Shown: piece by piece, positions 4,695-64,000 of the stretch
Layout: every line of letters begins with the position of its first letter
Numbering within the stretch: the first letter of the stretch is position 1
Source of the DNA: Hygrophila difformis
Lineage: Eukaryota; Streptophyta; Magnoliopsida; Lamiales; Acanthaceae
DNA: 64,000 bases
Assembly: GCA_030278955.1 (NCBI GenBank)
Contig: JAOANR010000003.1
Span: 26,923,227-26,987,226 of the forward strand
Direction of reading: 5' to 3'
Position numbers and translations under genes: made by a program
The notes under the pieces: model-generated
Told to the model about the DNA's origin: nothing
Database searches by the model: none
The model's input: the letters and a program-made list of their open reading frames with translations, nothing else

Positions 4695-4891
4695 GTGTAT
4701 ATATATATATGTGTCTGCATTTGTTGTCAAAACGTCTCACTCAAAACATAGACAGTTCCCTTTTCCTTCTGCTGCAAATATACTCCATTAGCCTGAATTG
4801 CCCTGAGTGAAACTCCACCAGTTGGTTTGATTAGAATCCCAAACCACCTCTTTTAAGGGTTTTTGTTTATCTAGAAATTTAAACCCCAAAA
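4695..4891 (+). promoter_or_regulatory. Putative core promoter and 5' UTR of the ICE1-like gene
   Basis: A TATA-type run GTATATATATATAT lies at about 4697-4710, roughly 185 bp before the chosen ATG, followed by a pyrimidine-rich leader. The transcription start is not known. The position relative to the coding start is the only support besides the motif. Confidence 0.45.
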
Positions 4892-7800
4892 ATGTTATCC
4901 AGAGTGAACAGCATGGTTTGGATGGAAGAAGGCAAAGCTGGGGAGGAGCATCAGACGGCGGCAGCGCCGTGGCCACAGGCCAACAACAATGGCGGCGGCG
5001 GGGGCAATGGATTGGAGAGCAAAGAGGAAATGGAAATGGGAGCCATCTCCACATTCAAGTCGATGCTGGAGGCTGAAGGGGAGGATTGGTACATGACCGG
5101 CGGAGGCTCCGCCGCCGCCGGCCACCAGGACATCTCATTCTCGCCAGGATTTGCGGAGGACGCGGCGAACCACCTGCTTCTGCAGGCCGTCGATTCGTCG
5201 GCGTCGTGCTCGCCGACGTCGGCGTCGGTTTTCACGAACCTTGATCCTTTCCAGCACCAGGCGAATTACTCAAATCTCCAGCTGAAATCTTTGATCAATC
5301 CAATTCCTAGTAACATCAACATGAACAATAACAACAATAACCCCAATTTGGATGGGGGCTTCGATTTGGGGTGTGAGAACAATGGGTATCTGGAGAGCGC
5401 CCTGACCGGCGGATTCAACGATTTGGTGGCACAAAATCCGATGGATCATCATCACCAGGGGTTGAATCTGAGCTCGAATCATTTCCCCGGGAGCAATTTC
5501 ATCAGCCAGGGTGGATTAATTGGGGGATTAGGGTTTGGGGACGGATCCCTAATTGGAGCAGTGAACAACAACACCTCACTGTTCTTCAACAGGTCCAAGA
5601 TTCTCAAACCTCTCGACAATTTCACCACAATTGGATCACAGCCCACTTTGTTCCAAAAAAGGGCTGCCCTCAGAAAGAGCAACACCAATTTGGGATCTTT
5701 GAACATTGGATCAAACCACATCACAAACCCTCGTCATCAGATAACCCTAACTTCTCCAATCAGGAACACCATTGAGATCCTAGGGTCCGACAAAAAGCCC
5801 GACGCCACCGAAGAAAACGACCGGAAAAGGAAGGCCAGCAGCGGCGACGATGTGGAGGATTTGAGCATTGATGGATCCAATCTCAACTACGACTCCGATG
5901 ATCAATACTTAGAGTTCAGCACTGTCAACAAGGCAGAAGATACAACAAAAAACGGCGCAAGCAGCTCTCAGCAGCCTCTCCCCGGCGACCCCAAAGGGAA
6001 GAAGAAAGGCCCTCCGGCGAAGAATCTCATGGCGGAGAGGCGCCGGAGGCAGAAGCTCAACGACAGGCTGCTGATGCTGAGGTCAGTGGTGCCAAAGATC
6101 AGCAAGGTAATTTTATTCATTCTTTCCGTAGTGAATTTCTCGTGAATTGTTACATCGTTTGAAACATGTTTTCGCCATGGAAGTGTGTTGGATGGCCCTA
6201 AACAAGCTATTCACGCGTTCATCGCGAACTTTTTGGTTATCCTTAGTTGTTCTTCATGTTTTTCGAATTCTTTATTTTTTATTAAAAAAACTTTTAAAAA
6301 AAAATTTGTTCTTTTTAAGATTTGAATCTTTGCTTTGCATAGATATTGTTGGTGTGAGTGCATTAAATTAGTAGCTAGCTAGTTTTCCATTGCCTAAATT
6401 TGATTTTTATATTTTTACAGTTTTCTTTCTGATTGATGAGAGGTATACACATTAAAGTTTTTTGTGATAGCATTTATTTCACTCACATGGAATCTATGAA
6501 CTGATTTGAAAAAACTAAAAAAACTAAAATGAAATAAAATTTTCATCTTACAGTTTGGACCACAGACAGGAAATGAGACATTATTCATTTCAAAGCTCAC
6601 AAAATTTTGAAACTGTATAGCAGCTATAGAATTTATTTTCGTCTGACACTACAGAATTGGGATTAAATTTTCTGCATTTATTGTTAAGCACAAAATTGGT
6701 TGCCTTCTTTCTCTTTGGTTTCTGAAAAAACTAAACAAAACGAAAAAAATCTCTCAATGTGAAGGTTTTATTCAGGTGTTTTAACCGACTATTAAAATCA
6801 TATAGCAGCTATGAAACGTTACTAATCGTGTTTAATTAATAGATAAGTTATGGTAATAATTGTTTGATTCTAATCATTAGTTAATTTATTGGCAGTTATA
6901 ACTACTAGATATAATAATTAATCATTTAGTATTTCATTGCCATTAATGTGTACTAACTGCTTAGATTCTTAATTATTGCCTCTAGAGATTTAAGAAATTT
7001 GAGTATGTTTTCAGTTGAAAGAAAAGCTAATTAATCATTACTTGTTTTGTATAAATTGTTTGGTGGAATTATTTCTCTGCTACGTGACCTTGTAGTTAAT
7101 TAACCATATCATATCATACAATAACGGTTATTTGTGTTTTGACCACTTAAAATTATTTGATAATCATTTCATGAACGCAAAAAATAATTAGGTGTTCTTA
7201 CCTAGTATTTTATTTCATATCATATACCAAAATATATACTCATTCTCTTCAATTATAAGTTCCTTTAGAAAATAAGAACCTTAGATAGATGATAAAATTC
7301 ATGAGTTTTAAATTTTTTAAGAAAATAAAAACAAAATAAGTACAATATATAATTAATAATATTAAGTACGGATATATCATTTTGCTACTTAAAATGATAC
7401 AATTATAATTAGTTACTATAGGAGGGGAATCAAAACAATAATTATATAAACTTTAATGATTATTTTAATACTTCTAGTTTTACATGATACTATTGTTATA
7501 AAAAAAAAAACTAATAAATGAAATTAAAGTACATTTTAATTTCGAAAGTTTGTCTTACTTATTTTACTCCTCTAGTCCTTCTTGTTTTCTTTATATTCTT
7601 TCCTTTTTCAATTCGTCTCATCTGTTTACCAAAAAAATAAAAATAAAAAAAAATCGTCTCATCTAAATATAGCCTTGTTTAATTTCCTTCTAAAAGTATA
7701 ACTATTAGATTTACTTAAACTTTTAATTTAAGACAAATTATTATTATTATTATTATCAATCTAATACAGTAACAATAATAATTGAATAGGCTGTCAAGCT

Positions 7801-35697: not shown

Positions 35698-35830
35698 GGA
35701 ATACTAAACGGATAGATTTTCAAACTTCTTAAGACCAAAATACCCCTTTTTCAGACCCTTCTTCTTCCTTTGCACTAACCATCACACGTCGTTTCAACCG
35801 CTTGTAATTATGGCATAATTTAGTTTTTCT

Positions 35831-35842
35831 GCTATAAAATCT
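35831..35842 (+). promoter_or_regulatory. TATA box of F-box copy 1
   Basis: GCTATAAAATCT lies about 85 bp before the ATG of F-box copy 1, followed by a CT-rich, ATG-free leader. This is a standard plant core promoter layout and suggests the cargo has its own transcription unit. Confidence 0.6.
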
Positions 35843-35920
35843 AGTCGAATCTTTCTCTCCTTTCATCTCAAACATTCCCACATTAGAACAATTATCCTAC
35901 AACCTTTATCAGAAATCAGA

Positions 35921-36661
35921 ATGGCCGCAGCAGCTCCCAATGCCAAAACATCCATTGTAGATATCCCTGATGAAATTTTAGGAGACATTCTTTCAAGACT
36001 GGGAAAGGAAGAGATGAGAGATGTAGCTAAAGCAGCCCCAACTTGCAAGAAATTCTTTAGAGCAAGTAAGGCACCTGCAGTATGGAGGAGAGCAAATGTA
36101 GTGAAGCGAATCACTGCGGAGAGAACGCATGATGCTCACTACGCACAGATAATGGAAAAATGCAGAGAGGCAGGGAACTTCATGCTCAAACTTGAACCTG
36201 CACTCGCGGCTTTCTGCAACACAGGGCTCATGGAAGTCGCTTTTGAAATCCTCAAGCCTGGAATTGAGGATAACCATCACCCTTCAATCTTCATCAAGGC
36301 TTTCATTCTTCTGAGTTCGGAGAGCCTTGAAGAGATTGATGAAGGACTGTATCTGCTTGGTCAATCTTTAAAGAGGAAGAGCACATCCACAAGATTAAGG
36401 AGATGATCAGCAGAGTTTTTATTTTACAGTGAAGAAGAGCCTAACCCTTTCCAGGGACAAGGGCATCGTTACTACTGTGATTACATAGCTCCACACAGCA
36501 GAGACTTAGTTAGGGAGCCTCCACACTATAATTATGGTGCCACAAACATTGATTATTTGTGTTGTGAGGTTACTAATTTGATTAGAGAATTAAGAGAAGA
36601 TTTCAATGAACATGTAATTGAATCTGAGTCAGAATTAGAAACTGATTCAGATTTTGATTAA
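35921..36661 (+). pseudogene. F-box protein, copy 1 (frameshifted)
   Basis: The ATG at 35921 starts an Ala-rich lead, then the F-box IVDIPDEILGDILSRLG..KKFFRASKAPAVWRR (residues about 11-55). F-box domains bind SKP1 in SCF ubiquitin ligases. After it comes a helical region with the signature CREAGNFMLKLEPALAAF (about 36,160) and AFEILKPGIEDNHHPSIFIK. Near 36,385-36,395 the frame is lost; the other frame continues with EPNPFQGQG, paired cysteines (YYCDY..DYLCCEV) and an acidic tail ending at 36,661. The overall plan resembles plant F-box proteins of the At2g35280/At1g67623 type; that assignment is from memory of the pattern. The gene has no intron and carries its own TATA box. Confidence 0.8.
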
Positions 36662-37067
36662 ATGATTATGTATTCCCTTAATTTTTGTTTAATTTTGAGT
36701 CCTCTGATGATGATATGTCTTCTTTACTCCTCGCTTTATTTTCTTGTCTTGAAAAATGACTTGATCTTATCTGTTGCACCAGATTTTTATCTGAGTCATT
36801 TTAAATAAATTTGTTTTTCAAATAGGCTTATTTTAGGCTTAATCATTACTCCCTGCAGAGACAAGATTTACTATCTTGACCCCTGCATTTCTTAGATAGA
36901 AATAGGTCGGCTATATCCTTGCAGTCATTCCTCTCAGTTGTCATTTCAAAACTTTTCATCAGTCTTTCTTTCTTTTTCTCTCCCGAGAAGAAATCGTCAC
37001 ACACCAATACCTTCATTTTTAATCATTTTCGTAGGAAGTTCATTCAGAAACCTAATCGACGAAGAAA

Positions 37068-38182
37068 ATGGCCGAGAACAATCCGTAAGCAATGTAGTTT
37101 ATCCTATCTTTCACATTGTTGTTCTATTCTGCAATGTTTGTTTCCGGATTACACTATTAGACCTAGGGTTTATGATTCTGAATTTTCGATGAGTTCATTC
37201 TGGCTGTAGAAATCGAAAAACTAAACATTGATTTCTCATAACTGAAAGCCGTTTCTTTAAACTCACTTAAACAATGTTTAATTTGGAGGGTTTCTTTCTG
37301 AAGTCTTTATTTAGTAACTGACGCATTATCCATACGAGATTATTGGAGCTTGGAAATAGAAATGAAATCCCATTTTCGAATTGATAGTTCCATCATTTTC
37401 AATAAAAGTTCTCTTCTGTATTCCTTATTGTATTCTTTTCTGGAAACAGAAATGCTAGGAATCCACAATTCCTTGGAACTCAGATATCTGATTTACCCAC
37501 TGAGTTGCTGGGAGATATTATGTCGAGACTTGGAAAAGACAGTGTGAGGGAACTCTTTAGGGTAGCAGAAGTCTCTCCAATATTCTATCAAGCAAGCAAA
37601 ACCCATCTTGTGTACAAGAGAGCAAACTTGGAATCATGTATGAGATGGAGGGAAAATGTCTATCCTGATAATCAGAAAAGGTTCATTCAAGAGTGCCAAA
37701 ATGCAGGGAATTTTATGTTTAATATCGAACATGCATTGATAGCATTTGTTGATGAACGGGATGAGAAGAAAGCCTTTGAACTCCTCAAGTCAGGACTAGA
37801 TGATGAACATCAACCCACCATTCTTCTCAGAACAATGCTTCTCTTAACAAAATAAGATGACAAGCTAAATGAAGCAGGTTTAGAGTTGATCAAAATAGCA
37901 GCTTCGAATGTCCTAGATGTTGTTTTCATTAAGCTCTATCTTTTTCATTGGCTAATCCATTTTCCAAGAATCCCAAACCTTTTTCAAGGTCAAGAAGAGA
38001 GAAGTTATTGCAAGACTCATACATTGCAGGAACGAGCCTTGTTACCACCATATGTTAGGATGGACTGTATTCCTTGTCAATTCTTTGACATAGTAAGGCA
38101 ATTCAGATTGTATTGTGGTGAGGTATTTCCTGATGAATTTCTGTGGACTGATTCTGATGAAGAGGAAATTGTTAATCCTTGA
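37068..38182 (+). pseudogene. F-box protein, copy 2 ('A' type), two exons, one stop
   Basis: Exon 1 is the 17-nt ATGGCCGAGAACAATCC (37,068-37,084), followed by GTAAGC. The intron of 365 nt ends in GGAAACAG, and exon 2 runs 37,450-38,182. The Pro codon is completed across the junction (CC|A). The F-box starts ISDLPTELLGDIMSRLGKDS. Helical repeats include CQNAGNFMFNIEHALIAF, and there is a Cys-containing C-terminus with YCKTH..MDCIPCQFF and an acidic end. The single interruption is TAA near 37,853, at a position where copy 5 has CAA, so it is a likely C-to-T change. Retention of an intron means it was acquired as DNA or from unspliced or antisense RNA. Confidence 0.8.
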
Positions 38183-38373
38183 ATAGTTCAGTATTTTCTA
38201 GAATAGGGAAATGCTATGGCTAATTTTTGTGTTTTCAGCAATCTTGGGATGAAATTTGGAACCACCTATTAATATGTTTCTATTAAACTTGTTACCCAAC
38301 AATTCTTGTACTTTCATTCCTTTATGCTTCTTTTCTTAATTCAATTGCATTATCTTTTCCAATTATTAACTAG

Positions 38374-38689
38374 TGATGAAACTGGAAGCTCCTCAAAGAA
38401 ACCAAAAATTTCATCAAAGGAGTCTGGATAAGGGGAAACTCAGATCACAACACTTCCCTATGAGATTCTTGGGAAAATCTTGTCAAGATTGGTGTTTGAC
38501 CATCAATTGCAAATTAATCTGTAAAATGTTGAATGAGGCTTCCAAACGTCCTTTAGGCTAAAAAGAGGAGTATATTCAGGGGATGAAATGAAAGGATTAG
38601 TAACCTTAATGAAGGAATTGAGGGTAGCTTTTAATTAGTACGTAGATGAATTGGATTTAGACTTTGAGTCTGATTTAGAATCTAATTAG
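38374..38689 (+). pseudogene. F-box protein, copy 3 ('B' type), internally deleted
   Basis: After a weak acceptor (TATTAACTAG at 38,364-38,373) the frame encodes DETGSSSKKPK and, past a stop, TLPYEILGKILSRLVFD, clearly matching copy 6 (CEIGSSSKQPR..DLPYEILGNILSRMAFD). The helical part is missing, and an acidic tail (DELDLDFESDLESN) ends at 38,689. At least three stops are present. No ATG exon lies directly upstream. Confidence 0.75.
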
Positions 38690-39088
38690 ACTCAATGCAT
38701 AATTTTGTAGCTTTAATCTTTTTCAATTTTTGCTCCTCGCTTTGTTTTTCAAACTAATCTATTTCGTCCAAAAAGCTTTGCCTATGTAGGTTTATCAACT
38801 CAAATTTTGAGTTAATATTCAAATCCACTGATGTGGCAGGCCTAGACTTAATTAGTATAATCTAAGAGAGGAAAAACGCTTGAGTATCCTACTCTGCAGC
38901 TTTTAAACTAGGCCAGCCCATTTCTTTTTATATCCTATAACCTCCATATCTTCTCAAATCACTTTCATATCTATCCATATATTTTTCTCTCGAAGGAGAA
39001 ACCGCCATCGTCAAGTTTCTCTCCTTCCATTTGCGAAACTTTCATCCAGAAACGTTCGAGATACCATCAATTCCAGGAACTCACTCAA

Positions 39089-40084
39089 ATGGCAGGCAAC
39101 AATCCGTAAGCCTTCCATTCATACTTCATTTTCTTCTTCTTCGTGTTTCAATTCTTCAGACTTTTCTTCTGCATTCCGCATTTAATTGTTTGATTCATAT
39201 ACTAGGGTTTATATTCTGCATTTCGCATAATCTCTCTTCGTTCATTCACATTCTTCTTTAAAATCGTAGAAATTTTGGTAGTATAATTTCATTAATACAA
39301 ATAACTGATTTTTCTTCTTTAAAACTCGCTCAAACAACAGTAAAGAGCAGGCTTCTGAGTTCTCTGCACTACACTTGACTGATCTTCCACTGGACATCAT
39401 TGGGGAGATTTTGTCACGAGTAGGGCAGAGCAGCTTCGAAGATTTGCTCCATTGCAAAAGAACTTGTTCAACATTCAAAATGGTTTCAAACTACCCTACT
39501 GTTTTCCGGAGATTCAATGTAGAGGATCCGGCTTTTAAGAGAATTTCTAATAAATCCTCTGGTAAAGCTGAGTTTCTACACTCCTGCAGAAGGGCTAAAA
39601 ATCACATATTGAACCTACATAAGACTATGGAACTATTCACACAGGTAAAGAATACAAGGCGTTTCAAATCCTGGAAGAAGGGATAAATGACAATTCTAAG
39701 TTTTCGCAATATTTTAAAGCCTTATGTTGTTTATGCCGAGTTTCTAGAAAGGAAATAGATACAGTGCTTCATTTAATTAGTCCTATATTAAATGATAGGT
39801 TAAATAGCTACGATTTTAGATATGATCTTCTCACTTTACTCTCAGAATGGGAATATGTCCCGAATCCCTTCTTAGGCCAGAAAAAGAGGGAATTCTGCAA
39901 TTTTGATAATCATGATCTGGAAAACTTTCATAGGCCATCATATTTTAATCATAGAGCAGATCAGATCAACTATCTTTGTTGTGATACAAGTAGAGCAATA
40001 GCTGATTTTAGGATGGCAGCAAAGGAGAATTCTGATAACCATAGCATTATTGAAGAATTCTTGGATGAAGGAAGAAGAGATTGA
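39089..40084 (+). pseudogene. F-box protein, copy 4 ('X' type), two exons, one frameshift
   Basis: Exon 1 ATGGCAGGCAACAATCC (39,089-39,105) is followed by GTAAGC, a 235-nt intron ending CAAACAACAG, and exon 2 from 39,341. The Pro codon is completed as CC|T. The F-box reads LTDLPLDIIGEILSRVGQSS. A one-base frameshift near 39,650 separates it from the second half, which carries the NPFLGQKKREFCNF and NYLCCDTS cysteine motifs and ends at 40,084. A TATA-like TTTATATCCTATAACC lies about 150 bp upstream of exon 1. The exon 1 leader resembles that of copy 2, showing that leader plus cassettes was duplicated as a block. Confidence 0.8.
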
Positions 40085-40255
40085 TGCGTGTGACAAGTCT
40101 CCTAGTATTAGATTTTGAAATTGTCACCAAACCAAGTCTTTTGTATTATGTAATGCAGCTTGGTATTGTTAATAAAATCTAATCTCTATTTCTTAATTAC
40201 TGCATAAATGATGAGTTTTACTCTTAATTCTGTGTTTTCCTCCTTTTCTTTTCAG

Positions 40256-41009
40256 AAATGTCGAAATCTCTCAACTCTTGGAAACTCAAATATTTGATTT
40301 ACCAACTGAGTTACTTGGAGACATTCTGTCGAGACTAGGAAAGGAAAGCATAAAGACACTTTTTAGAGCATCTGAAACATCCAAGCAATTCCTCTCAGCA
40401 AGCAGATCATCATTAGCTCTAAAGAGAGTTAATTTGGAAACCTGTGCTATTTGGAGAGGAAATGTTTATCCAAGTAATCAGGTCAAATTTATTAAAGAAT
40501 GTCAGGACGCAGGCAACTATATGTTTAATATCGAACCTGCACTGATAGCCTTTGTGGATGATAAAAATGAAGAAAAAGCCTATGAAATCTTAAAGGCCGG
40601 ATTAGATGATAAACACAAATCAACTGCTTTCATAAGATGTCTTCTATTGCTTTCCAAACAAGACCAACAACTGGATGAGGAAGGAATTCAATTGATTGAA
40701 TCTGTAACCCAGGATCCCTTCAATTTAGCTTTCCTTAAAATAAGTGTTCTGCACTGGCTTCTTCACTGTGAGAAGTTCCCAAATCCATTCCTTGATCAAG
40801 AGGAAAGGAGTTTTTGTAAGAATCACTCCCTTGAAGAGCGACAGCAATTACCCTTCATTGAAAGGATGGAGTGTATTCCATGTGAATTATTTGACTATGT
40901 CAAGCAATACAGAAGAGCAAGTGGAGAACAAGGCATATTATTTGACTGGGAGCAAGGGAACAATGAAGAAGAAGAGCAAAATGAAGATGAATTGCTAGAA
41001 TTAGACTAG
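40256..41009 (+). CDS. F-box protein, copy 5 ('A' type), intact 3' cassette without own AUG exon
   Basis: A strong acceptor (TTTTCTTTTCAG, ending 40,255) opens an uninterrupted frame of about 250 codons to TAG at 41,009. The N-terminal part matches copy 2 exon 2. The F-box reads IFDLPTELLGDILSRLGKES (residues about 14-33 of the cassette). A helical repeat region follows with CQDAGNYMFNIEPALIAF and YEILKAGLDDKH; then FCKNHS and MECIPCELF; then a Glu-rich tail. It is the only F-box copy without a stop or frameshift. There is no in-frame ATG near the start and no mini-exon immediately upstream. Translation would need splicing to the 39,089 or 37,068 mini-exon, for which the phase is correct. Predicted role: SKP1-binding substrate adaptor. 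Target unknown. Confidence 0.75.
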
Positions 41010-41171
41010 TGTAGTAATCAAGCAGTTCATATTCTCTTTTGCTTGTAATCTTTTGTGCTTATTGTCTTGAACAATGAATTCTCTGGATAACCTAATCTGT
41101 ACATTCCTTTTGCATTAATGAATATTCATTCCTTAGCTTTTAATTTGGCTATTGTTTTTAATTCTACTCAG

Positions 41172-41920
41172 CTGTGAAATTGGAAGCTCTTCAAAGCAAC
41201 CAAGGACTTCAATAAAGAAATCTGGATCGGGGGAAACTCAGATCACAGATCTTCCTTATGAGATTCTTGGGAACATTTTGTCAAGAATGGCATTTGATCA
41301 CCTTGAGACTGTTTTTAATTGTAAATTAGTCTGCAAAGAGTTTGAAGAGGCTACCCATCATCCTTTAGTCTCGAAAAAAAGCTTCTCTTGAAGAATTTTC
41401 TGCATGGGGATGGGGGACTTTTGAAGAAACACAGAGAGATTTTCTTGAAAGCTGTAGAAATGCAGGAAATTGGATGTACCAGTTACAGGAGGCACTGCGT
41501 TTGTTTGTTCAAGCTAAGAATGAACAAGCAGCATTTGATCTCTTGAAACCTGCAATTACTAATAATCACCCCCCGTCCATTTACATAAAAGCTCTTATGC
41601 TTTTGAGTCAGGATGAAGTTGAAGAACAAGAGAAAGGAATTTGGCTCTTTGCTACTCTATGTAAGAATAGACGAAGGCTCAAAGATCTTCGACTTCAAGT
41701 TAGAGGGTGGCTATCAAATTATGAGGAATTTATTTCACCTTTTCAAGGACAACCTAAGAAGAGATTTTGCAATCTTAGGAACTATTATGATAATAATCAT
41801 GGCCCTTCAAGGAACTCTTATGGAGTTACCTTAATTTACTGCATGAGGTGTTTAGTCTCTGAGCACTGTAATCTGTTTCTCAGATTTGGAATTGAGGGGG
41901 AGACACCTCCTTATTTGTAA
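41172..41920 (+). pseudogene. F-box protein, copy 6 ('B' type), one frameshift
   Basis: An acceptor TTTTTAATTCTACTCAG ends at 41,171, and the frame then reads CEIGSSSKQPRTS and the F-box ITDLPYEILGNILSRMAFDH. At an A7 run near 41,380 the frame shifts, and the helical part (CRNAGNWMYQLQEALRLF, FDLLKPAITNNHPPSIYIKA) and the cysteine part (RFCNLRN..IYCMRC) continue to 41,920. Phase at the acceptor again fits CC|C of the mini-exon. No own AUG exon is seen. Confidence 0.78.
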
Positions 41921-53769: not shown

Positions 53770-54084
53770 GAAGGGAGCAGTAAAAATAGGATAAGATTGA
53801 CCTACCCGATAAGTCAATGTTCCCAGCACATAACCCATTGGGTGAATGATGACTGTGGCCGGTCAGACTTTTGCAGCAACTTTTTTGCCCGCCACTTTAT
53901 AGATGTCAGTTTTTTACCCGAAAAGACGGAAAGCTTCTTGGACCGGATACTTGGACCGGACCCGGACCAAATAAAATACCCGGGCGAAGCTTGATCAAGG
54001 ATTATCCTAAATGATATTAATTAGGACTGTTTGACTCGGAATATTAAGCTTAGTCCGTGCATTATTAATATCCGGGCATAGCGC

Positions 54085-55250
54085 TGTCGCGGACCAAGCA
54101 ACAGCAATCCTCTTAGTCCGGGAATTCGCTATACCCGGCTATATAATAATTGGCGGACCAAGGCGCCGTTCTCCGGACCAAGCTGTTTGGTCCGCTTTTC
54201 CATTAGGTCCGCCCATTGTTGTGAGCGGACCAAGCGTTTTTGACCGAGTCAAGCCTCGGGAAGGCAACCGCTTTGTCATTACGTCTGCATTTATTCTCGT
54301 GAGTGCATGGAATATATTCCCCACTTCCCCCACCACCCGCCCATTCAGCGTTCATAATATCATTTCAAAAGCCACCTCTTTTTCTCTAGATCTAGATCCA
54401 GATCTACAGCGTCCGTTCACCACCATTCGTTTTTCTCCGTGACCGACGTTAATCCTCCGGCCATCTTCATTGTTGGGTATGATTATATTGTTCCATTTTT
54501 TTCCTTGTGCGTATAAATTTGGTGGGGTATTATTTTTAATCCGCCGACCATCGTCGTTGTTGTGGATTTTTTTTTTTCTTGTTCCGTATAAATTCAGTTT
54601 TTTCCTTGTAATTTTCAGATCCGCCGTGAAGGGTTAGAAGAAGTTCGATTTCCATTGAAGATCCAAATGCGGATATATTTATTGTTGGTAAGTTATAATT
54701 TTTTTTTGATTAAGTAGATATTGTTATTATTTCTAAGATTTCTGTGATTTTTTTTAAAAATTTTTCTAAGGTTTTATTTGTGTGATAATGTTAATTTTTT
54801 TATCCGAACGCGGATACATCTATGGTTTTATTTCAGCTATACAAAAAATTGTTCAATGCTAAACCTTTCGATTCTGAAATGCGCGATTCTGAAAGACAAA
54901 TTGTTCAATGCTTGGTCCGCTCGAAAAAATATACGGACCAAGCATGCAGTGTGCTTATATTCTGCTGATTATGACTTGGTCCGTGCATTAATGCTTGGTC
55001 CAATAATATGCGGACCAAGCATGCAGAGTGTTATATTAACCCTACTACTTGGTCCGTGCATTAAATATGCGGACCAAGCATGCTGTGTGTTTATTTTCTG
55101 CCGATTATGACTTGGTCCATGCATTAATGCTTAGTCCAATAATATGCGGACCAAGCATGCAGAGTATTATATTAACCCTACTACTTGGTCCGTGCATTAA
55201 ATATGCGGACCAAGCATGCTGTGTGTTATAATCCGCGGACCAAGCTTGAT
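54085..55250. repeat. GCGGACCAAGC site array upstream of the MULE gene
   Basis: GGACCAAGC or its complement GCTTGGTCC (some with one change) occurs about 17 times: near 54,094, 54,155, 54,175, 54,224, then densely from 54,913 to 55,243. The later part is a two-copy tandem repeat of about 136 bp (54,969-55,104 and 55,105-55,240). Each copy contains four sites in alternating orientation. A TATA-like CTATATAATAATT (54,139) lies among the first sites. A possible 5' UTR intron follows GTTGGTAAGTT (about 54,684). The sites could bind the transposase or a host factor. Confidence 0.8.
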
Positions 55251-55383
55251 GTGTCCAATAATGGGCGATCCTAGCATATTTTGAAATATATTGCTGCATA
55301 TTTATTTAATATATTGCTGCATTTATTAAAAATTGTTGGGTTTTTGAATAACTTGTGCGCAGTTGTATTTTGTCGGCGCAACA

Positions 55384-58300
55384 ATGGACTCGTCGTGGTT
55401 GTTTGGTCCGGAAGGGTTGTTGGGAGGGGAAGCAAACCGTGCGAATGATATTGACTACACAGTTAATCGTAAGTATTTATACGTGCTATTTACTTATGAA
55501 TTTAGTATTTGCGTTGTACATGCATATTTTTTGCATTTACTTGTACTTGTTTTCGTGGATTTATGTTATATGAATATGTTAAATTAATTGTTCAGTTCGT
55601 TAATGTACATTGTTAATTTGTTATTTTTTTTTTTGTTTGCATGAATAAATGGATATAGATTTGGATACATTTTACCGCTATATAGTAATTGTAGATTAAT
55701 GAACAAATAAAAAAGAAAGACGACATAAATTATTATTATTATTTTTCGAGTACTTGAACACACAAGTTATTATTATTCCGTCTATAGTATGAAAAAAATA
55801 TTACTAGATTTATATAAGTAAATAGTATTACTGGTGCCGATTTATTTTATTTATTACTTTTGTTATTAGTATTATTAATTATTATTTTAATTATTATTTT
55901 TTGAATTTTAAAATGGTAATTAAAAGATAATGTAGAAATATTAAAAAGTGTAAAGTAATAATAATATAATAATAAGGTTAAATTAAATAAAAAATAAAAT
56001 ATAGTAAAAATTTAAATTAATAATAATATATTAATTCAAAAAAATTAAATTTAAAAAATTTATTTAATTATTATTATTATTATTACTATGTTATTATAAT
56101 TATTATTATCGAGTACTCGAACACACAAGTTATTATTATTCTGTCTGTTGTATAAATAAAATATTACTAGATTTCTATAAGTAAATAGTACTATTGTTTC
56201 CGATTTATTTTATTTATTACTTTTGTTATTAGTATTATTATTACTTTGACTGTTATTATGTTATTACTATTTTAATTATTATTTGTTGAAGTTTAAAATG
56301 GAAATTAAAAGATAATGTAGAAATATTAAGAAGATTAAAGTAGTAATAATATAATTATAATGTTAAATTAAATTAAAAAATAAAAAATTAATATAATAAA
56401 AATTTAAAGTCATAATAATATAATAATTCAAAAAAAAAGAAATTTTAAAATATTTATTTAATTATTTTTATTATTACTACTATGTTATTATTATTATTGT
56501 TATTTTTATTATTTACTTTATTATTTGTTGAAGTCCAAAATGAAAATGAAAAGAATATGTGTAGAAATATTAAAAAATTTAAAGTAATAATAATCTAATA
56601 ATAAGGTTAAATTAAATTAAAAAATAAAAATATAATATATTAAAAATTTATAGTAATAATAATATAATAATTCATAAAAAGTAAAATTTAAAAAATTTAC
56701 AATATTAGTACTATTAAATGAATAGAATCTGTCATGGTAGGAAAATGAAAAATTTAAAATATACTAGTATAACTTAAGGTAAATTGCGTTTATATTTATA
56801 TTATGAATTGTTGATAGTTATTAGGACAATTATTTTTATCATTATAATTCTGCAAACCAATAATACGTTAACATTTTTATTTATATTAACAGTAATAAAA
56901 ATAATAGTTTATGGTGATCATAGTAGCTTAGAAGTAGTGTTGTATTAATATGTGCGAAAAGATTTTTTTTAAATGTATTAATAGTTTATGGTCGACAATG
57001 TTTAGAATGTACGAATGAATCAACTAATTACACACAACACCCCCGTTGTACGTACTACGCGTCCGGGGCGACGAGTTGGTCGGACTACATATTCGGTAAT
57101 CCACCGTCGCGGAATCCGTTGTGGGCTCCGAACGCAGGTGCTAGTAGCAGTGGCCACGTACCAGAATATGTAGGCGAATGTCGTAATGAGTACGGAACAA
57201 CCATCCCTGTAAGTTATCCAACCCTTACCGGGCTAGAGGAGGGTGAGACAAATGTAGCGAATGCATCAGACCATGAGGACATGGGCGCGCAGGATAACGT
57301 GGTGGATGAGGCACAGGATGACCAGAGTGATAAGAGTGAGGAGGAAGAATGGCAGGATGAATGGGGTGAGTCAGCAGCGGAAGTAGACTTTGAAGATTTG
57401 ACAGGGCATCGCTTGATACTCACCTATTTCAAAGCCTTCTGGAGAATTGTACGCGAGGGAGAATCCATAGAGGGACTCGATGCTGGCCTCGATCCAGCGA
57501 GGCGACTGCCGGCAGAAGGGTTCACGGTTCCTCAAATGACACGCGGGAACTGGAATTTGCCGCGTCCACCGCTTGAGCTGCCTGGAGATTACGTCGACCC
57601 GTACGTGGATGAAACCGTGGATAGACCACTAGCAGTGGGATCAGTGTTTGCGACAAAGAGGCGGTTGCAGGAGAAATTGGTCGAGTACTTGATCGGAGAG
57701 AGATATGGGTACGTGACTTGCAAGTCGGACAAAACACGATATTGGGTGCGCTGTTCCATGGAGGAATGCGCTTTCCAGATGTGCGCGCGAGGCACCCCAT
57801 CGATATGGACCGTATACAGATTGGTACCACACAATTGCACGTTTAACCCGGATAATATTCCAGACACGAGACTCCCGTCCAGTCACTTGGGGGCATATTA
57901 TGCGAATGTGGTGGCGGTTGGGTCGGAGACGATGGGACCCGAGTCACTTCGGGCGCGCTTGTTGGAGGACGGCGTCAGAATATCGGTGGATATGGCGAGA
58001 AAGATTCGGGCTCATGCCATTTCATACATTTTTGGTGGGCATGACGACTCCTTCCGAATGATTCCATCGTACCTGTATATGATGCGGGAGCAAAATCCTG
58101 GGACCTATACGGAGTACGTAGTTGATGATTAGGATAAGTTCTTGTACTGTTTCTATGCGTTGTATGCGTCAATTACTGGGTGGAAAGAGATGCGGCCCTT
58201 CATCGTGATTGACGGAACGCATTTGAAGGGGAAGTACAAGGGAGTACTTTTCGTGGCAGTGACGAAAGATGGGAACAATAAGATATTTCCGCTCTGTTTC

Positions 58301-59562
58301 GGGGTCGGACCGAAAGAGTCAACAAGGGCGTGGAGATGGTTTCTTACGCAGATGAGGGCCGCGCTTCTTCCAAACGACAATGTGTTGATAATCTCTGACG
58401 GTTCGCCCGCAATTAGAGCTGCGGTGGAGCAAGCGCTCCCGAGGAATCCACACGTTCTATGCTGCGTGCACCTAGCGAAGAACCTGTTGCGGTTCGGGGG
58501 GAAGGGAGCCCAGGACGCATTCATGGGAGCGGCATATGCACACAAGAGGTCCGTGTACGACCGGCATATGGCCACCCTAAGGGATGGGTATCCGAGCGCG
58601 TATAGACATTTGATGGAGGAAATAAGGCCAGAACGCTTCGCGCGAGTTCACTGTCCCGTCCGGCGGTACGACATGATGACGACGAACATCGTCGAAAGCA
58701 TGAACAAGGTCCTTTTGTGGGCACGCAGGTTGCCTGTGTGCGCTATGCTGGAGGTGATTCGTGCTACTGTCGGAGATTGGTTTAAGAGAAGACATGAAGA
58801 TGCTTCAAGAAACACAGACCGTTTAACCGATTGGGCAACTAGGGAGGTGTTTAATGCTCGAGCGATAGGTGATAAGTTGGATGTCGAGAACACGCGTTTG
58901 GAAAATGTGTACCAGGTCCGGCACGGCAGTAAGTCGTACACGGTAAGCCTTACGGAGGACCCATCGTGTACATGCCAGAGCTTCCAGCAGATGTTGATAC
59001 CGTGCTCCCACGCAGTCGCCGCAATACTGTAAGTATTCGATTACATCATTGCTTCAGAGGTTTATCGCGCTGGAAACATAAGTTGAGTGTATTTCCAATA
59101 TGCAGGAAAGCGAGGCACGAAATAACCCACTATGCCGGCGCCTTCTATCTTCGAAGTCGTTTGATGGATGCATGGAGCGGACCCGTGTATCCGATGGCAC
59201 ACCCGAATGATTGGGCGGTACCAACAGAAATTGCGGACGCCCCATGCAAGATGCCTGAATGCCCGCGCCAAGCGGGAAGACCAAGAACAACCAGGCTTCG
59301 ATCGGCAGTGGAAAGAGCATCGCGTGCCGGGATGCCTCAAAGATGTCGCAGGTGCGGCCAATCCGGCCACAACCGAAAGAACTGCACCGCGACGGTTGAG
59401 CCTGTGGCCGGGACATCAGAAAGGCGACCGCGTGCACCAAAAAAATGTAGTAGATGCGGTCAGGTAGGGCACACGGCACTGAGGTGCCCGCAGAACATGC
59501 CTCGGAATATCCCCGATTTGAATAGTACCGGACCATATGCCTGGGAGACGTGGCCCCACTGA
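55384..59562 (+). pseudogene. MULE (MuDR-type) transposase, three exons, one premature stop
   Basis: Exons: 55,384-55,468, 57,006-59,028 and 59,106-59,562, all with GT..AG borders and matching phase (C|AA and CT|G), about 854 codons. Domains in order: an acidic N-terminal region; the MuDR N-terminal DNA-binding domain (about 57,620-57,840, with cysteines in CSMEECAFQMC); the MULE catalytic domain with FIVIDGTHLKGKYKG (first Asp, about 58,205), VLIISDGSPAIRAA (second Asp, about 58,395) and TTNIVESMNKVL (Glu, about 58,683); a SWIM zinc finger CTCQSFQ..IPCSH (about 58,970-59,012); and two zinc knuckles CRRCGQSGHNRKNC and CSRCGQVGH. The only defect seen is TAG at 58,130-58,132. Intron 1 (1537 bp) is extremely AT-rich. 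Cut-and-paste transposase of the Mutator superfamily. Terminal inverted repeats were not found. Confidence 0.88.
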
Positions 59563-59776
59563 GTAACAATGAGCGATGGTCCGTTGCTGAATTTATGATT
59601 TCAAGTGTAATTGGAGTGTATGAAAGACAAATAACTGTATCCTCTATCAAATTGTTGCCACAATTATTATTCTCCAACAAAGCGGATAACATGTTTTAAT
59701 GCCCATTTGTCAACGAACAATCGGTCACATAATGTAAACAATCGGCAGTGGATTGTCATCCTTCTTGTCTATCTTC
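59563..59776. other. 3' flank of the MULE gene
   Basis: About 210 bp of moderately AT-rich DNA, without an ORF or recognisable repeat, separate the transposase stop from the first inverted repeat. Confidence 0.5.
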
Positions 59777-60106
59777 TCATTCAAGGATTTTGCTCCTGTC
59801 AACACTCTCAAACAAGCTGTAGTTGATTCCCAAACTGATACTCTCTGTGTTCCATGAGTATAATTTCACCATTCGAATTGTGTCCTTGTTCCCTTGTCTG
59901 CCCCGAGTTAGAAGTTGGCGACTCAGGCTGTTCTCCTTGCCTGACGGTTCCATACTTTGAAGGTTATGGAAAGAGGAATTAACTTGCCATTTTCTGAACT
60001 CTTCTTCCCAAGTGAGAAGCATGTCGGCTGGGGCTATAATTGCAGGCCGACAGTTTGGAAACTTTTTTATGTAGGTTTCAATGAATACAATGGTTAAACG
60101 GGTTTC
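59777..60106 (-). pseudogene. CLASSY-type SNF2 fragment, left arm of inverted repeat 1
   Basis: On the minus strand this arm encodes RLTIVFIETYIKKFPNCRP, then IIAPADMLLTWEEEFRKW and later IRMVKLYSWN..LGINYSLF. That is the stretch just after the Walker A motif through motif Ia of SNF2 helicases, with the wording of CLASSY 3/4-type proteins (FHNL, IRMVKLYSW, LGISY.LF). CLASSY proteins recruit RNA polymerase IV for 24-nt siRNA production. Walker A itself and the rest of the enzyme are missing. The frame is open across the arm. Confidence 0.75.
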
Positions 60107-60138
60107 AATTAGTATGCGCAATACTCCAGATTATGGGG

Positions 60139-60474
60139 GAAACCCGTTTAACCATTGTATTCATTGAAACCTACATAAAAAAGTTTCCAAACTGTCGGCC
60201 TGCAATTATAGCCCCAGCCGATATGCTTCTCTCCTGGGAAAAAGAGTTCAGAAAATGGAAAGTCAATTTCTCTTTCCATAACCTTCAAAGTATGGAACCG
60301 TCAGGCAAGGAGAACAGCCTGGGTCGCCAACTTCTAACTCGGGGCAGACAAGGGAACAAGGACACAATTCGAATGGTGAAATTATACTCATGGAAGACAG
60401 ACAGTATCAGTTTGGGAATCAGCTACAACTTGTTTGCGAAGTTAGAGGAGCAAAATTCATCAATAAGAAGATAG
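60139..60474 (+). pseudogene. CLASSY-type SNF2 fragment, right arm of inverted repeat 1
   Basis: Plus-strand arm encoding ETRLTIVFIETYIKKFPNCR, then IIAPADMLLSWEKEFRKWKV, FHNLQSMEPSGKENSLG and IRMVKLYSWKTDSISLGIS. The match to CLASSY-type SNF2 proteins is by conserved wording between helicase motifs I and II. There is no start or stop context of a gene, so it is a captured exon piece. An intact CLASSY gene elsewhere in the genome is expected but not visible here. Confidence 0.78.
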
Positions 60475-60845
60475 ACAAGAAGGATGACAATGTGATCATG
60501 CAATACAGATATGTCTATATTTGATCGAGACATAGATGGCAATCCAGAACCTTCCGGGCCATGCAGATTAATATTCTTGAAGAATGTGGATAACATGTTA
60601 TTCATTACACTTGAACTAAAGGAAAAATATTTCGGAATGGTTGTTCAGAGAGTGATGGTCACTATCTGCATCGTCCTATACAGAGGATATATGCAAGCCG
60701 TAAGAAATGCCGGAGTGGCCAGCGTGAATCGGCACGCCCTATTTACGCGACTGGCGTGCAGCTTCGACATTTTCTAGACTCACATAATGATCAGACTCTT
60801 ATGCCGCGATAAAATGTTGTGGTCGTGCGAGTTTTATTTTACTTG
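60475..60845. other. Spacer between hairpins 1 and 2 with a possible captured fragment
   Basis: A plus frame from about 60,511 reads FDRDIDGNPEPSGPCRLIFL, and a similar DNA block (TGATCGAGG..GACATGCAGATTAAT) recurs in hairpin 4. The block 60,646-60,705 recurs at 63,413-63,472. The protein is not recognised. Confidence 0.45.
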
Positions 60846-60847
60846 GT

Positions 60848-61582
60848 GGGAATGATATGATCCGGCATGCTTTGCCTGAAGGAATTAAGAAGTGCATGGT
60901 CGGAGATTGTGGAGAATGTGCAGCCCGGTTTGTGTCGCGGCATGTGTGCCCCCAATGCCTTCCGCACGAACATGGTGGACATTTCTACCACTGCATGGCA
61001 TGTAGGGCATGGGTTCATATTTTTTACTTAATACAGCGATGGAGCCTTACACGGTAGTGGAGAAAGGCATTCAGAATGACGAGCTCGCAAGACCTCGAAT
61101 GACTAGCCTGTGCGTAAAGGTGTGTATCCTCACATTCGATGACCACTGACCATTAAAACAATCCTTGTAGGGGTTTTAGAAGCAGATTCTTGGAAGCATG
61201 GCACCTTCAAATACTCTTGTAATCGTGCTTCAAAAAATCTGCTTCTAAAATTCCTACAATGATTGGTTTATTGCCCAGTGGTCATTCGATGGGCGGACAC
61301 ACACCTTTACGCACATTAGGGTCATTCGAGGTCTTGCGGGCTCGTCATTCCGGATGCCTTTCTCCACTACCATGTAAGGCTCGATCGCTGTATTAGATAA
61401 AAATACATGAACCCATTCCCTTCTTGCCATTGGGAGAAATGTCCGCCATGTTCGTGCGAAAGGCATTGTGGGCACACATGCCACGGCACAAACCGGGGTG
61501 AGAATTCTCGACAATCTCCGACGGTTCACTTCTTAATTCCTTCTGACAATAAATGTCGGATCATATCATTCCCATTAGGTAA
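60848..61582. repeat. Inverted repeat 2
   Basis: Arms 60,848-61,198 and 61,226-61,582 (about 350 bp) are reverse complements with perhaps 15% mismatches; the 27-bp spacer is bounded by GAAGCAGATT and AATCTGCTTC. One frame of the left arm is rich in Cys and His (GDCGECAARF, CPQCLPHEHGG, CMAC), but I cannot assign it. More mismatches than in repeat 1 suggest it is older. Confidence 0.9.
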
Positions 61583-61688
61583 AAACTAAAACGCGCACGG
61601 GCACAGTATCCTGCCGCGGGCCAGGAGCATTGATCATTATGCGTGCCAAGAATATGCCGTAGCAGCCCGCCAGCCAGCTCTCACGACG

Positions 61689-62205
61689 ATAACAAGCGGT
61701 AGAATGAGAGCCGGGATTGCTGTTTGTGATGTTGCGGCCTCTCTAGATGCAGGAGGCTATGTTCGAAGCAGGCAACGTTGGCACATGCCTGTGATGAGGC
61801 ACAACACATAGTCGGGCAGCATCGGCATGTGGAAGCATGCATAGTAGATGACATTTCTAACAATAGTTAGTGTTTTATCCAGATTACCTTGTGCACATTT
61901 GTCGTACTATGATCATCTCTGTGAATGGTTTTATTTGCGTACTGCATCACTAACCGCGCTGCCGGGAACTCTCCGTAATGTGTACAAACGAACACTAATT
62001 TTTTGTTGGGATGGGATTTTTAGAGAGGAGCAACACGTTCTTCGGGCTCGAGTTCTGTAAGAACGTGTTGCTCGTCTCTAAAAATCCCATTCCAACAAAA
62101 TATTAGTGTTCGTTTGTACACATTACGGAGAGTTCAGGGCAGCGCGGTTAGTGATGCTTTACGCAAGTATGATCAGTTACGGAGATGATCAAAGCATGAG
62201 AAATG
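61689..62205. repeat. Direct repeat copy 1, containing inverted repeat 3
   Basis: This 515-bp block recurs at 63,476-64,000 in the same orientation with few differences and one 16-bp insertion. Inside it, arms of about 135 bp (61,908-62,040 and 62,057-62,195) form a hairpin around a 16-bp spacer, with GAACGTGTTGCTC as the innermost stem. No protein recognised. Confidence 0.88.
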
Positions 62206-62699
62206 TGTACAAGTTAATCTGGCTAAAAATTATTGATTCTTTTCAGGTTGTATGTGTCAGTAACGGCATTCACTGCTGCATGATCCAACATACCTATATC
62301 GGCCCTTGTATGTGTTGTGCCATACTCAGAGCTGTGCGAACGTTGTGTGCTTACAACACAATCTTCCTGCATTTAGTAGATGCAGCATCATTTCATGCAG
62401 TTTTCTTGGTTTGGCACAGATCGAATAGTGCAGCATCATACGCAGGCATGTTCGAGAAGGTAACACTTGCCGCGAGCACGAGACCAACTGTACGGAAATA
62501 ACCCATCCGTCATTTGCGGCGCGAGACCAAATGGGAACGTTGCGGCTAGAGTCCAGTTGCTGAAGTTGCAACGATCGGCCGGCGAGTCAGATGAGGTTGC
62601 GGTGCAGGGTGAAATTCTTTGGCGTTCAGACGAAGGGACAAGGATAAGGATGTAGTCCACTGTTGGACAATTAGTCCTGGGCTATCCGAAACATCTTCA
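62206..62699. other. Unassigned fragment between hairpins 3 and 4
   Basis: The stretch contains a splice-acceptor-like TTCTTTTCAG (about 62,240) and a short open frame at 62,467-62,655 (NPSVICGARPNGNVAARVQL). The exon-like borders suggest captured genic DNA, but the source is not recognised. Confidence 0.35.
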
Positions 62700-63245
62700 G
62701 TTTTTTTATGCGGCGAATGCTCAAATTCTTTCCCCACTTCAGGTGTGCGAGGGACTTGTGTTTCGGCGAGTTTTCCTGTAACTGGTTCGCTGTCACAGTC
62801 CTTGCTATGTTATCACGCCGCACACCTGTATGGTGAAATGTGGCAGGCGACCGTCCTAATACGACTTTTCCATTAATCTGCATGGCCCGGAAGTTCTAGG
62901 TTGTCCTCTCTGCCTCGATCAAATGTAGACATCTGGGTATTTAAGCGTGTAATTCATAATGAGATGTGCATATCTAGATGAATTAATAAGTTCTTAATTT
63001 CCTCATGACTTACACGCTGAGTAACCCAGATGTCTACGTTTGATCGAGGCAGAGGGGACAACCTAGGACTTCCGGGACATGCAGATTAATGGAAAAGTCG
63101 TATTAGGACGGTCGCCTGCCACATTTCTCTATACAGGTGTGCGGCGAGATAACATAGCAGGACCGTGACAGCGAACCAGTTACAGGAAAACTCGCCGAAA
63201 CACAAGTCCCACGCACACCTGAAGTGCGGGAAGAGTTTGAGCATT
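62700..63245. repeat. Inverted repeat 4
   Basis: Arms about 62,700-62,952 and 63,010-63,245 are reverse complements at high identity (shared TCGATCAAA.GTAGACATCTGGG, GCAGATTAATGGAAAAGTCG, ACAGGTGTGCGGCG and others), spacer about 57 bp. The encoded frames show no known protein. Confidence 0.9.
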
Positions 63246-63475
63246 TTCAACATAAGAAATGCTGAAGAAGTTTTGGATCGTCGAGGAGTAATTGTACATC
63301 AGTGGACGTCCTGATTCTCCATGGCCCTTAATCCGAACGCCGAAGGACGTCGTCCCAAACCGCATCCTCCTCTTCCTCGGTATCCGATTGTTACCGGATT
63401 GCCTGAAGGCATCAGAGAGTGATGGTCACTATCCACATCGTCCTATACAGAGGATATATGCAAGCCGTAAAAAAT
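63246..63475. other. Spacer with a block repeated from 60,646
   Basis: 63,413-63,472 repeats 60,646-60,705 (GAGAGTGATGGTCACTAT, CATCGTCCTATACAGAGG). The part before it encodes no recognised protein. Confidence 0.5.
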
Positions 63476-64000
63476 AGGTAGCAGGAAAGACGGGATTGAT
63501 GTTTGTGATGTTGCGGCCTCTCTAGATGCAGGAGGCTATGTTCGAAGCAGGCAACGTTGGCACATGCCTGTGATGAGGCACAACACATAGTCGGGCAGCA
63601 TCGGCATGTGGAAGCATGCATAGTAGATGACATTTCTAACAAATACATACCTGAAAACAATAGTTAGTGTTTTATCCAGATTACCTTGTGCACATTTGTC
63701 GTACTATGATCATCTCTGTGAATGGTTTTATTTGCGTAGAGCATCAGCAACCGCGCTGCCCTGAACTCTCCGTAATGTGTACAAACGAACACTAATTTTT
63801 TGTTGGGATGGGATTTTCAGAGAGGAGCAACATGTTCTTACAGCTCGAGTTTTGTAAGAACGTGTTGCTCGTCTCTGGAAATCCCATTCCAACAAAATAT
63901 TAGTGTTCGTTTGTACACATTACGGAGAGTTCAGGGCAGCGCGGTTGTTGATGCTCTACGCAAGTATGATCAGTTACGGAGATGATCAAAGCATGAGAAA
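63476..64000. repeat. Direct repeat copy 2, containing inverted repeat 5; runs off the window
   Basis: Second copy of the 61,689-62,205 block, shifted by about 1.79 kb. Its hairpin arms are about 63,710-63,840 and 63,854-63,990. The window ends near the end of the repeat, so the array may continue. Confidence 0.88.

Follow-up and report, generated by a model that had tools for sequence, protein, structure and literature searches.

CLASSY genes guide the silencing of transposable elements, and a CLASSY fragment folded back on itself beside a transposase raises the question of what such a sequence does in a transposon. How transposons escape RNA-directed DNA methylation (RdDM) is an open question, and the counter-measures that we encountered are VANC proteins and miR820. 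The locus considered here lies in a 64,000-nt stretch of the Hygrophila difformis genome (hereafter, the window). An earlier note on this stretch had proposed that a CLASSY hairpin next to a MULE transposase may act against host RdDM. The sequence part of the proposal stands (CLASSY identity, a host gene at 86–87%, exact 21-nt words and membership in a MULE), and the action itself is treated as conditional below. Beyond that note, seven more hairpins proved to follow this one (H1) in a tandem array of eight, and the unit as a whole is a multi-copy transposon.

The element is a MULE of approximately 19 kb, cut by the window edge; it starts at 53840, and its right end is placed provisionally at 72853. 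It was followed over 10 kb past the window (L031, where the window coordinate equals the L031 position plus 64000), and two further copies, on contigs C2 and C4, were also compared. The parts of the element are as follows, with the strand given where one applies.

53840–64000, plus strand: in-window part of the MULE, which runs on to window-equivalent 72853 in L031
54091–55244: subterminal repeats, non-coding, containing the motif GGACCAAG / CTTGGTCC (10 GGACCAAG and 6 CTTGGTCC)
54927–55227: 136-bp tandem repeat within the subterminal repeat stretch
55729–56716: AT-rich tandem repeats, resembled by an AT-rich block outside the window (71.4–72.8 kb)
56927–58132, plus strand: N-terminal part of the transposase, MuDR DNA-binding domain (PF03108, E 1.6e-7)
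58133–59032, plus strand: transposase core, MULE domain (PF10551, E 1.8e-18) and SWIM zinc finger (PF04434, E 5.6e-8)
58933–59562, plus strand: C-terminal part of the transposase, CCHC zinc knuckles (PF00098, E 1.5e-6)
59752–60106, minus strand: H1 left arm, CLASSY 3-like minus-strand ORF, on the plus strand antisense to the host gene CLASSY-A (L039; 87.2%, 360 columns)
60107–60138: H1 loop, 32 nt, the final 18 nt of which (from 60121 onward) can still be aligned to CLASSY-A
60139–60491, plus strand: H1 right arm, sense to CLASSY-A (85.5% to L039, 359 columns)
60751–61673: hairpin H2, palindrome 79.6%; its 94-bp part 60966–61059 occurs again in H8
61729–62391: hairpin H3, older CLASSY-A fragment, at 61873–62062 (63.4%, E 8.7e-11) and 62059–62245 (63.5%, E 2.4e-10)
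62570–63392: hairpin H4, palindrome 82.1%, of the same family as H6 and H7
63508–64190 (in the window to 64000): hairpin H5, duplicate of H3, derived from CLASSY-A (64.3%, E 4.6e-12, and 65.6%, E 8.8e-14)
64369–65132: hairpin H6
65576–66163: hairpin H7, with left-arm sequence from 65386
66352–67907: hairpin H8, a CLASSY-A piece and a core from a second host gene, CLASSY-B
70675–71388 (L031:6675–7388), minus strand: DUF1985 gene (PF09331, E 1.4e-9, 38.5 bits, cut-off 35.1)

From left to right, the order is thus GGACCAAG repeats, AT-rich repeats, transposase, eight hairpins, minus-strand DUF1985 gene and AT-rich repeats; the transposase and the DUF1985 gene are convergent, with the hairpin array between them. 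The transposase (overall 56927–59562, plus strand) is of the MULE type, with matches to PF10551, PF00872, PF03108 and PF04434, and lies upstream of H1, as had been claimed, with PF03108 in the ORF preceding that of PF10551. In the window copy, the DNA-binding part and the MULE core are separated at 58130–58132 by a single in-frame stop, or else by an intron. Pack-MULEs are non-autonomous MULEs bearing gene fragments, and this family, having transposase sequence of its own, falls outside that definition.

The element also encodes a DUF1985 protein, as VANDAL and KIU elements do, and this gene links it to the VANDAL group of MULEs, in which DUF1985 and DUF287 are domains of the VANC proteins (PMC5735166). 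DUF287 was not found in the minus-strand frames of L031, which were scanned without exon models. A Peptidase_C48 match in the C4 copy (E 0.0065, 16.8 bits) is below the cut-off of 20.7, and the window copy is without that stretch; this Ulp1-like frame (L035:3586–4266, minus strand) adjoins the DUF1985 gene, a KIU-like layout. The GGACCAAG and CTTGGTCC motifs are dense near the left end, in non-coding sequence upstream of the transposase, where VANDALs have VANC-bound motif repeats, and are considered here as candidate sites only.

The left end of the element, GGGTGAATGATGACTGTGG, is common to the C2 copy, with different flanks, and the right end is common to the C4 copy up to 72853 and is provisional. 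Target-site duplications of MULEs are typically of 9 bp; none was found here, with the right end of the window copy provisional, the C2 copy stopping short on the right and the C4 copy truncated on the left. No terminal inverted repeat was found between the parts below 57 kb and above 67 kb, where only AT-rich sequences were among the matches listed, given the same provisional right end. Rfam yielded no family at the gathering threshold within the window, and two weak matches to MLH3 among solved structures (E 0.03) were judged to be due to chance. Elsewhere in the window, a cluster of frames matching F-box and plant TPR_27 is located at 35819–41917, and a frame at 4883–6142 gave a partial match to HLH.

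The facing pair of CLASSY-like arms with a 32-nt loop, reported previously, is indeed present. The ungapped core of H1 (59806–60106 and 60139–60439, 301 nt, with 32 nt between) is 96% complementary, and the palindrome with gaps allowed is slightly larger, 59752–60491, with 91.6% over 742 columns. The arms proper are identical at 334 of 353 aligned positions, with 19 mismatches and, in addition, two gap positions. Both arms contain an open frame (59777–60130, minus, and 60085–60474, plus; the stop counted), and the folding energy of one RNA strand (740 nt) is –609 kcal/mol, compared to –191 ± 10 for 20 dinucleotide shuffles. An assembly artefact due to foldback reads was considered and rejected, given these substitutions and gap positions between the arms, the open frames and the inverted arrangement at all 40 scored loci described below.

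In the coding sense, H1 is CLASSY 3-like: seven proteins match at E ≤ 0.01 among 109 candidates, with 56–58% identity and 97% of the query covered, so that the label assigned in the earlier note holds, and three of the seven bear the name CLASSY 3 or CLASSY 3-like. In Pfam, the H1 ORF has only an SNF2 match below threshold (E 0.07). The arms start within the GTGKT motif (Walker A) of the SNF2 domain.

The left arm of H1 was used for a copy search in the 915-Mb assembly, with 40 of 481 candidates scored; as H1 served as the bait, elements without it are invisible to this search. Eighty matches from the 40 scored candidates correspond to at least 40 loci on 17 contigs. All 40 scored loci are inverted repeats, with both arms near full length in 38. 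Transposase sequence adjoins the repeat in all 30 fetched loci (the window's own counted), and the match extends back to 58221–58263, near the limit of the fetched stretch, in 28 of these, ending at 58664 in L005 and at 59425 in L002. Main blocks of the 29 other fetched copies are 96–98% identical to the window. Damage is observed in H2 of L010 and L021, and in H1 together with the downstream part in L018 and L019. Two hairpin copies with an equal score for one arm lie 13 kb apart (C7:1539269–1539997 and C7:1552257–1552985), perhaps as a segmental duplication, and another pair, on C10, is separated by 36 kb.

Dicer is expected to process long inverted repeats carried by a transposon, and Mu-killer is a siRNA source by which the host silences a transposon family. 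The hairpins might likewise work against the transposon and help the host to silence it, as long inverted repeats could trigger RdDM of their own element. We regard this reading as very improbable: at the thresholds used, the hairpins do not match the transposase or the DUF1985 gene, the repeat is a component of every one of the 30 fetched copies, not of one derivative locus, and the likeness of the copies suggests recent spread. That such hairpins could also feed 24-nt siRNAs back onto the transposon itself counts against the anti-silencing reading preferred below.

The folding energy of the eight hairpin stretches is –0.59 to –0.92 kcal/mol per nt, compared to –0.34 for a transposase stretch. 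The block 61698–62931 (H3 plus the H4 left arm) is repeated at 63477–64734 with 89% identity. H4 and H6 share 80% identity in their right arms, and H7 groups with both. Given the H3/H5 duplication and the likeness of H4, H6 and H7, the eight hairpins constitute about five sequence families. The arm identity in H2, H3 and H4 peaks beside the loop and drops outward, as if the arms had been mutually corrected near the loop or extended stepwise. The array also varies among copies, as 64341–65186 is absent from the C2 copy and 65169–65340 from the C4 copy.

Host genes were searched for with a CLASSY protein query, and 38 of 461 candidates were scored. Among these, we identified four CLASSY 3/4-like exons, L039 (gene A, CLASSY-A, on C14), L040, L041 (C6) and L042 (gene B, CLASSY-B, at C3:50187839–50189665), as well as more distant CLASSY-like exons (C10, three; C15, one). 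CLASSY-A, the host gene that the earlier note had suggested looking for, is located at C14:11418860–11420746, and its SNF2 exon, the part checked, is open over 634 codons; the relatives closest to it come from Rehmannia (74%) and Handroanthus (73%), both of Lamiales. L040 (C14:11433884–11435758) is a tandem neighbor of CLASSY-A, about 13 kb off, with one TAG in the matched frame.

The arms of H1 are 87.2% and 85.5% identical to CLASSY-A, above the 80% set in advance as the limit for a link with a host gene, about 78% identical to L040, and less so to other exons. Consensus arms built from 27 copies match CLASSY-A at 317/352 and 313/351 positions (90 and 89%). The longest exact runs shared by H1 and CLASSY-A are of 37 nt, and exact matches of siRNA length are present in both arms: counting both strands, 25 of 670 21-mers in the left arm and 18 of 666 in the right one are identical to CLASSY-A, and 168 and 138, respectively, have at most two mismatches. 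In all 30 fetched copies, one arm has an unbroken exact match to CLASSY-A of 29 nt or more. None of the 21-mers of H2–H7 and the transposase has fewer than three mismatches to L039–L042.

Other parts of the array also contain CLASSY sequence. H8 has an older CLASSY-A piece (76–80%, varying by alignment and arm) and an 88-bp core 91% identical to CLASSY-B. H3 and H5 match a different part of CLASSY-A at 63–66% (E 1e-10 to 1e-14), and the score of each of their four arms is reached by none of 60 dinucleotide shuffles (z 6.6–14.6; best decoy E 0.68). Hence four of the eight hairpins (H1, H3, H5 and H8), from three of the approximately five families, are fold-backs derived from host silencing genes, two in number, inside a transposon. 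The CLASSY matches are retained in all three copies read through the array, the window's counted.

For the remaining hairpins (H2, H4, H6 and H7), a convincing match was not obtained with CLASSY A or B, L041, L043–L045 or three RDR exon stretches (L072–L074); their comparison with Pfam gave nothing at E ≤ 1 (one zinc-ribbon match, E 2.2), and codon scores were uninformative. Several weak signals were rejected. The matches of H2R to L039 and of the H4/H6/H7 consensus to L042 were not accepted, as 5 and 4 of 200 shuffles, respectively, were at least as good. H4R and the H1–H2 linker beat 60 of 60 shuffles against CLASSY-A, but their scores were low (z 2.9 and 3.1; 68 such tests in total; BLAST E 0.85 and 0.034). 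The match of H3/H5 to the distant gene L044 is 21 bp long (E 0.018) and accounts for the four 21-mers with at most two mismatches in each of H3 and H5. The H8 core as a protein matched none of 140 candidates at E ≤ 1, and protein matches of H7 (E 0.02–0.03) were dismissed, their DNA backing being not clear (in the best case, that of L040, 2 of 200 shuffles). The CLASSY-B flanks also match AT-rich sequence of the element, among it the H8 tail, and we take these matches to be artefacts, as a reversed CLASSY-B decoy reaches E 1.5e-5 with this tail.

This mixed content bears on the main rival explanation, a passive by-product, in which the MULE lineage captures DNA in gap repair and re-copies it as fold-backs, the CLASSY pieces hitch-hiking without effect. 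Eight tandem fold-backs from about five sequence families, four of them (H2, H4, H6 and H7) matching no tested target, are what such a process could leave behind. On the other hand, a plant gene set comprises tens of thousands of genes, and random capture would be unlikely to bring into one element two CLASSY genes as well as two parts of gene A that do not overlap; the inverted state of all scored loci and the retained CLASSY matches also argue against it. On balance, we consider passive capture unlikely, though a serious competitor.

The positions of the pieces in L039 are 1754–2138 for H1, 1741–2050 for H8 and 2246–2448 for H3/H5, so that H1 overlaps H8 and does not overlap H3/H5. Together with the spread of divergence (63–66, 76–80, 85–87 and 91%), the matches to CLASSY-A and CLASSY-B suggest more than one acquisition, or refreshing of the captured pieces. 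Non-overlapping parts of gene A and a piece of gene B would be poorly explained by chance capture and might be explained by homology-driven re-copying: CLASSY sequence captured once, long ago, would have been renewed from host CLASSY genes by gene conversion or gap repair, with no need for selection. The common source of H1, H3/H5 and H8 in one CLASSY-A exon, the overlap of H1 with H8, and the adjacency of CLASSY-A and CLASSY-B pieces within H8 agree with it. We nevertheless find this scenario improbable, as homology would need to act at a distance to yield the non-overlapping H1 and H3/H5 pieces, and the CLASSY-B piece is N-terminal of the stretch homologous to the CLASSY-A piece of H8.

Diversity and pN/pS were calculated for 24 of the 30 copies, six rearranged or truncated ones being excluded. 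The pN/pS ratio is 0.52 in the transposase core and 0.43 in the C-terminal part from 59104 on, compared to 0.92 in the right and 1.77 in the left arm of H1. Wrong frames yield 0.34 and 1.49 (right arm), 0.85 and 0.31 (left arm) and 0.35 (linker frame); as they span 0.31 to 1.49, the ratio is noisy at such divergence, and selection on the transposase is not proven by it alone. Among the 24 copies, a stop occurs in 2 and 1 for the H1 arms, and in 3 and 4 for the transposase parts. The ratios of the arms suggest that no protein-level constraint acts on H1, and a role of the CLASSY ORF as a translated protein is not supported by them, a weak test given this noise.

Diversity is 0.019 and 0.024 in the H1 arms, 0.013 in the H1 loop, 0.016 in the spacer before H1, 0.014–0.017 in the transposase exons, 0.052 in the putative transposase intron, 0.033 in the linker and 0.029–0.044 in H2. 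As the arms are no less diverse than the nearby non-coding spacer and loop, they are not clearly constrained, which agrees with passive capture. Of the 29 differences from CLASSY-A common to both arms, polarized by L040, 14 arose on the transposon side and 10 on the gene A side, with 5 ambiguous; their distribution over the first, second and third codon positions is 4/8/2 and 2/1/7, respectively. Judging by these positions, CLASSY-A looks constrained as a protein, and the captured piece does not. Diversity is lower at CLASSY-matching sites than at other sites (left arm, 0.0136 vs. 0.0738, P 0.0002; right arm, 0.0191 vs. 0.0537, P 0.011; permutation test), but this comparison is confounded by polarity and was discarded as evidence, since a site with a common derived state is scored as a mismatch by construction.

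The reading that we prefer, and to which we give about an even chance, is that the captured CLASSY hairpins in a VANDAL-like MULE serve as an RNA anti-silencing device, like rice miR820 against OsDRM2. A VANDAL-like, that is, DUF1985-bearing, MULE would have captured pieces of host CLASSY genes and kept them as fold-backs between the transposase and the convergent DUF1985 gene. With these genes converging across the array, we infer that read-through from either side would transcribe the hairpins. The transcripts would be diced into 21–24-nt siRNAs matching CLASSY-A (from H1 and, weakly, H8) and CLASSY-B (from the H8 core), and these siRNAs would lower CLASSY 3/4-type activity. Reduced recruitment of Pol IV and reduced RdDM where those CLASSYs act would then favor the transposon.

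A broader version, which we put forward tentatively and hold to be somewhat short of even, is a two-part counter-defence against the Pol IV arm of RdDM, combining the DUF1985 (VANC-like) protein with hairpin RNAs refreshed from at least two CLASSY genes; H2, H4, H6 and H7 may then be older shots at other silencing genes. Such an element would be a natural link between the protein and RNA routes of anti-silencing. If the proposal is true, a family at at least 40 loci with hairpins of two CLASSY genes makes the arms race directly testable, with named targets, matching sites, copies and measurable CLASSY 3/4-type activity as the basis.

The closest known system is miR820 of rice CACTA transposons, which targets OsDRM2, the captured silencing-gene sequence being used by the transposon (PMC3459959). 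In both cases a fold-back similar to a host RdDM gene spreads with a DNA transposon, and the likely donor is the target. Unlike the miRNA precursor of miR820, the hairpins studied here are long, near-perfect and arrayed, reside in a MULE, correspond to the CLASSY component with two donor genes, and are known from sequence alone. The Drosophila element TART-A has captured nxf2, and small-RNA targeting of nxf2 has been proposed (PMC7785250), so that it also bears a piece of a host silencing gene; TART-A differs in being a telomeric element acting via piRNAs, and no inverted repeat is mentioned in the available part of that source.

With VANDAL and KIU elements our family shares the transposase and DUF1985 gene, the non-coding tandem repeats and the lack of a detected TIR; VANDALs are in known conflict with RdDM, their non-coding regions being RdDM targets (PMC5735166, PMC10398659, PMC13317346). 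It differs from them by the added array of gene-derived hairpins, and both anti-silencing and motif binding are putative here. MULEs with multiple long TIRs likewise have several inverted repeats per element (PMC3310237), but these are terminal, whereas here we observe eight internal fold-backs and found no terminal repeat. Pack-MULEs and the maize captured-gene siRNA reservoirs resemble the present case in MULE-borne gene fragments and potential siRNAs against the donor gene (PMC13317346); unlike them, as far as that source describes them, the family studied here also encodes a transposase, its fragments are inverted, and its known donors are silencing genes. In open-access literature, searched by title or abstract opening, with most subscription papers outside this scope, no CLASSY sequence captured as a transposon hairpin was found; one paper containing both words, PMC11986588, has CLASSY in a reference title only, in its available text. 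A transposon small RNA directed against a host silencing gene is of a known kind, and the arrayed long hairpins that this MULE carries from two CLASSY genes would be a new form of it.
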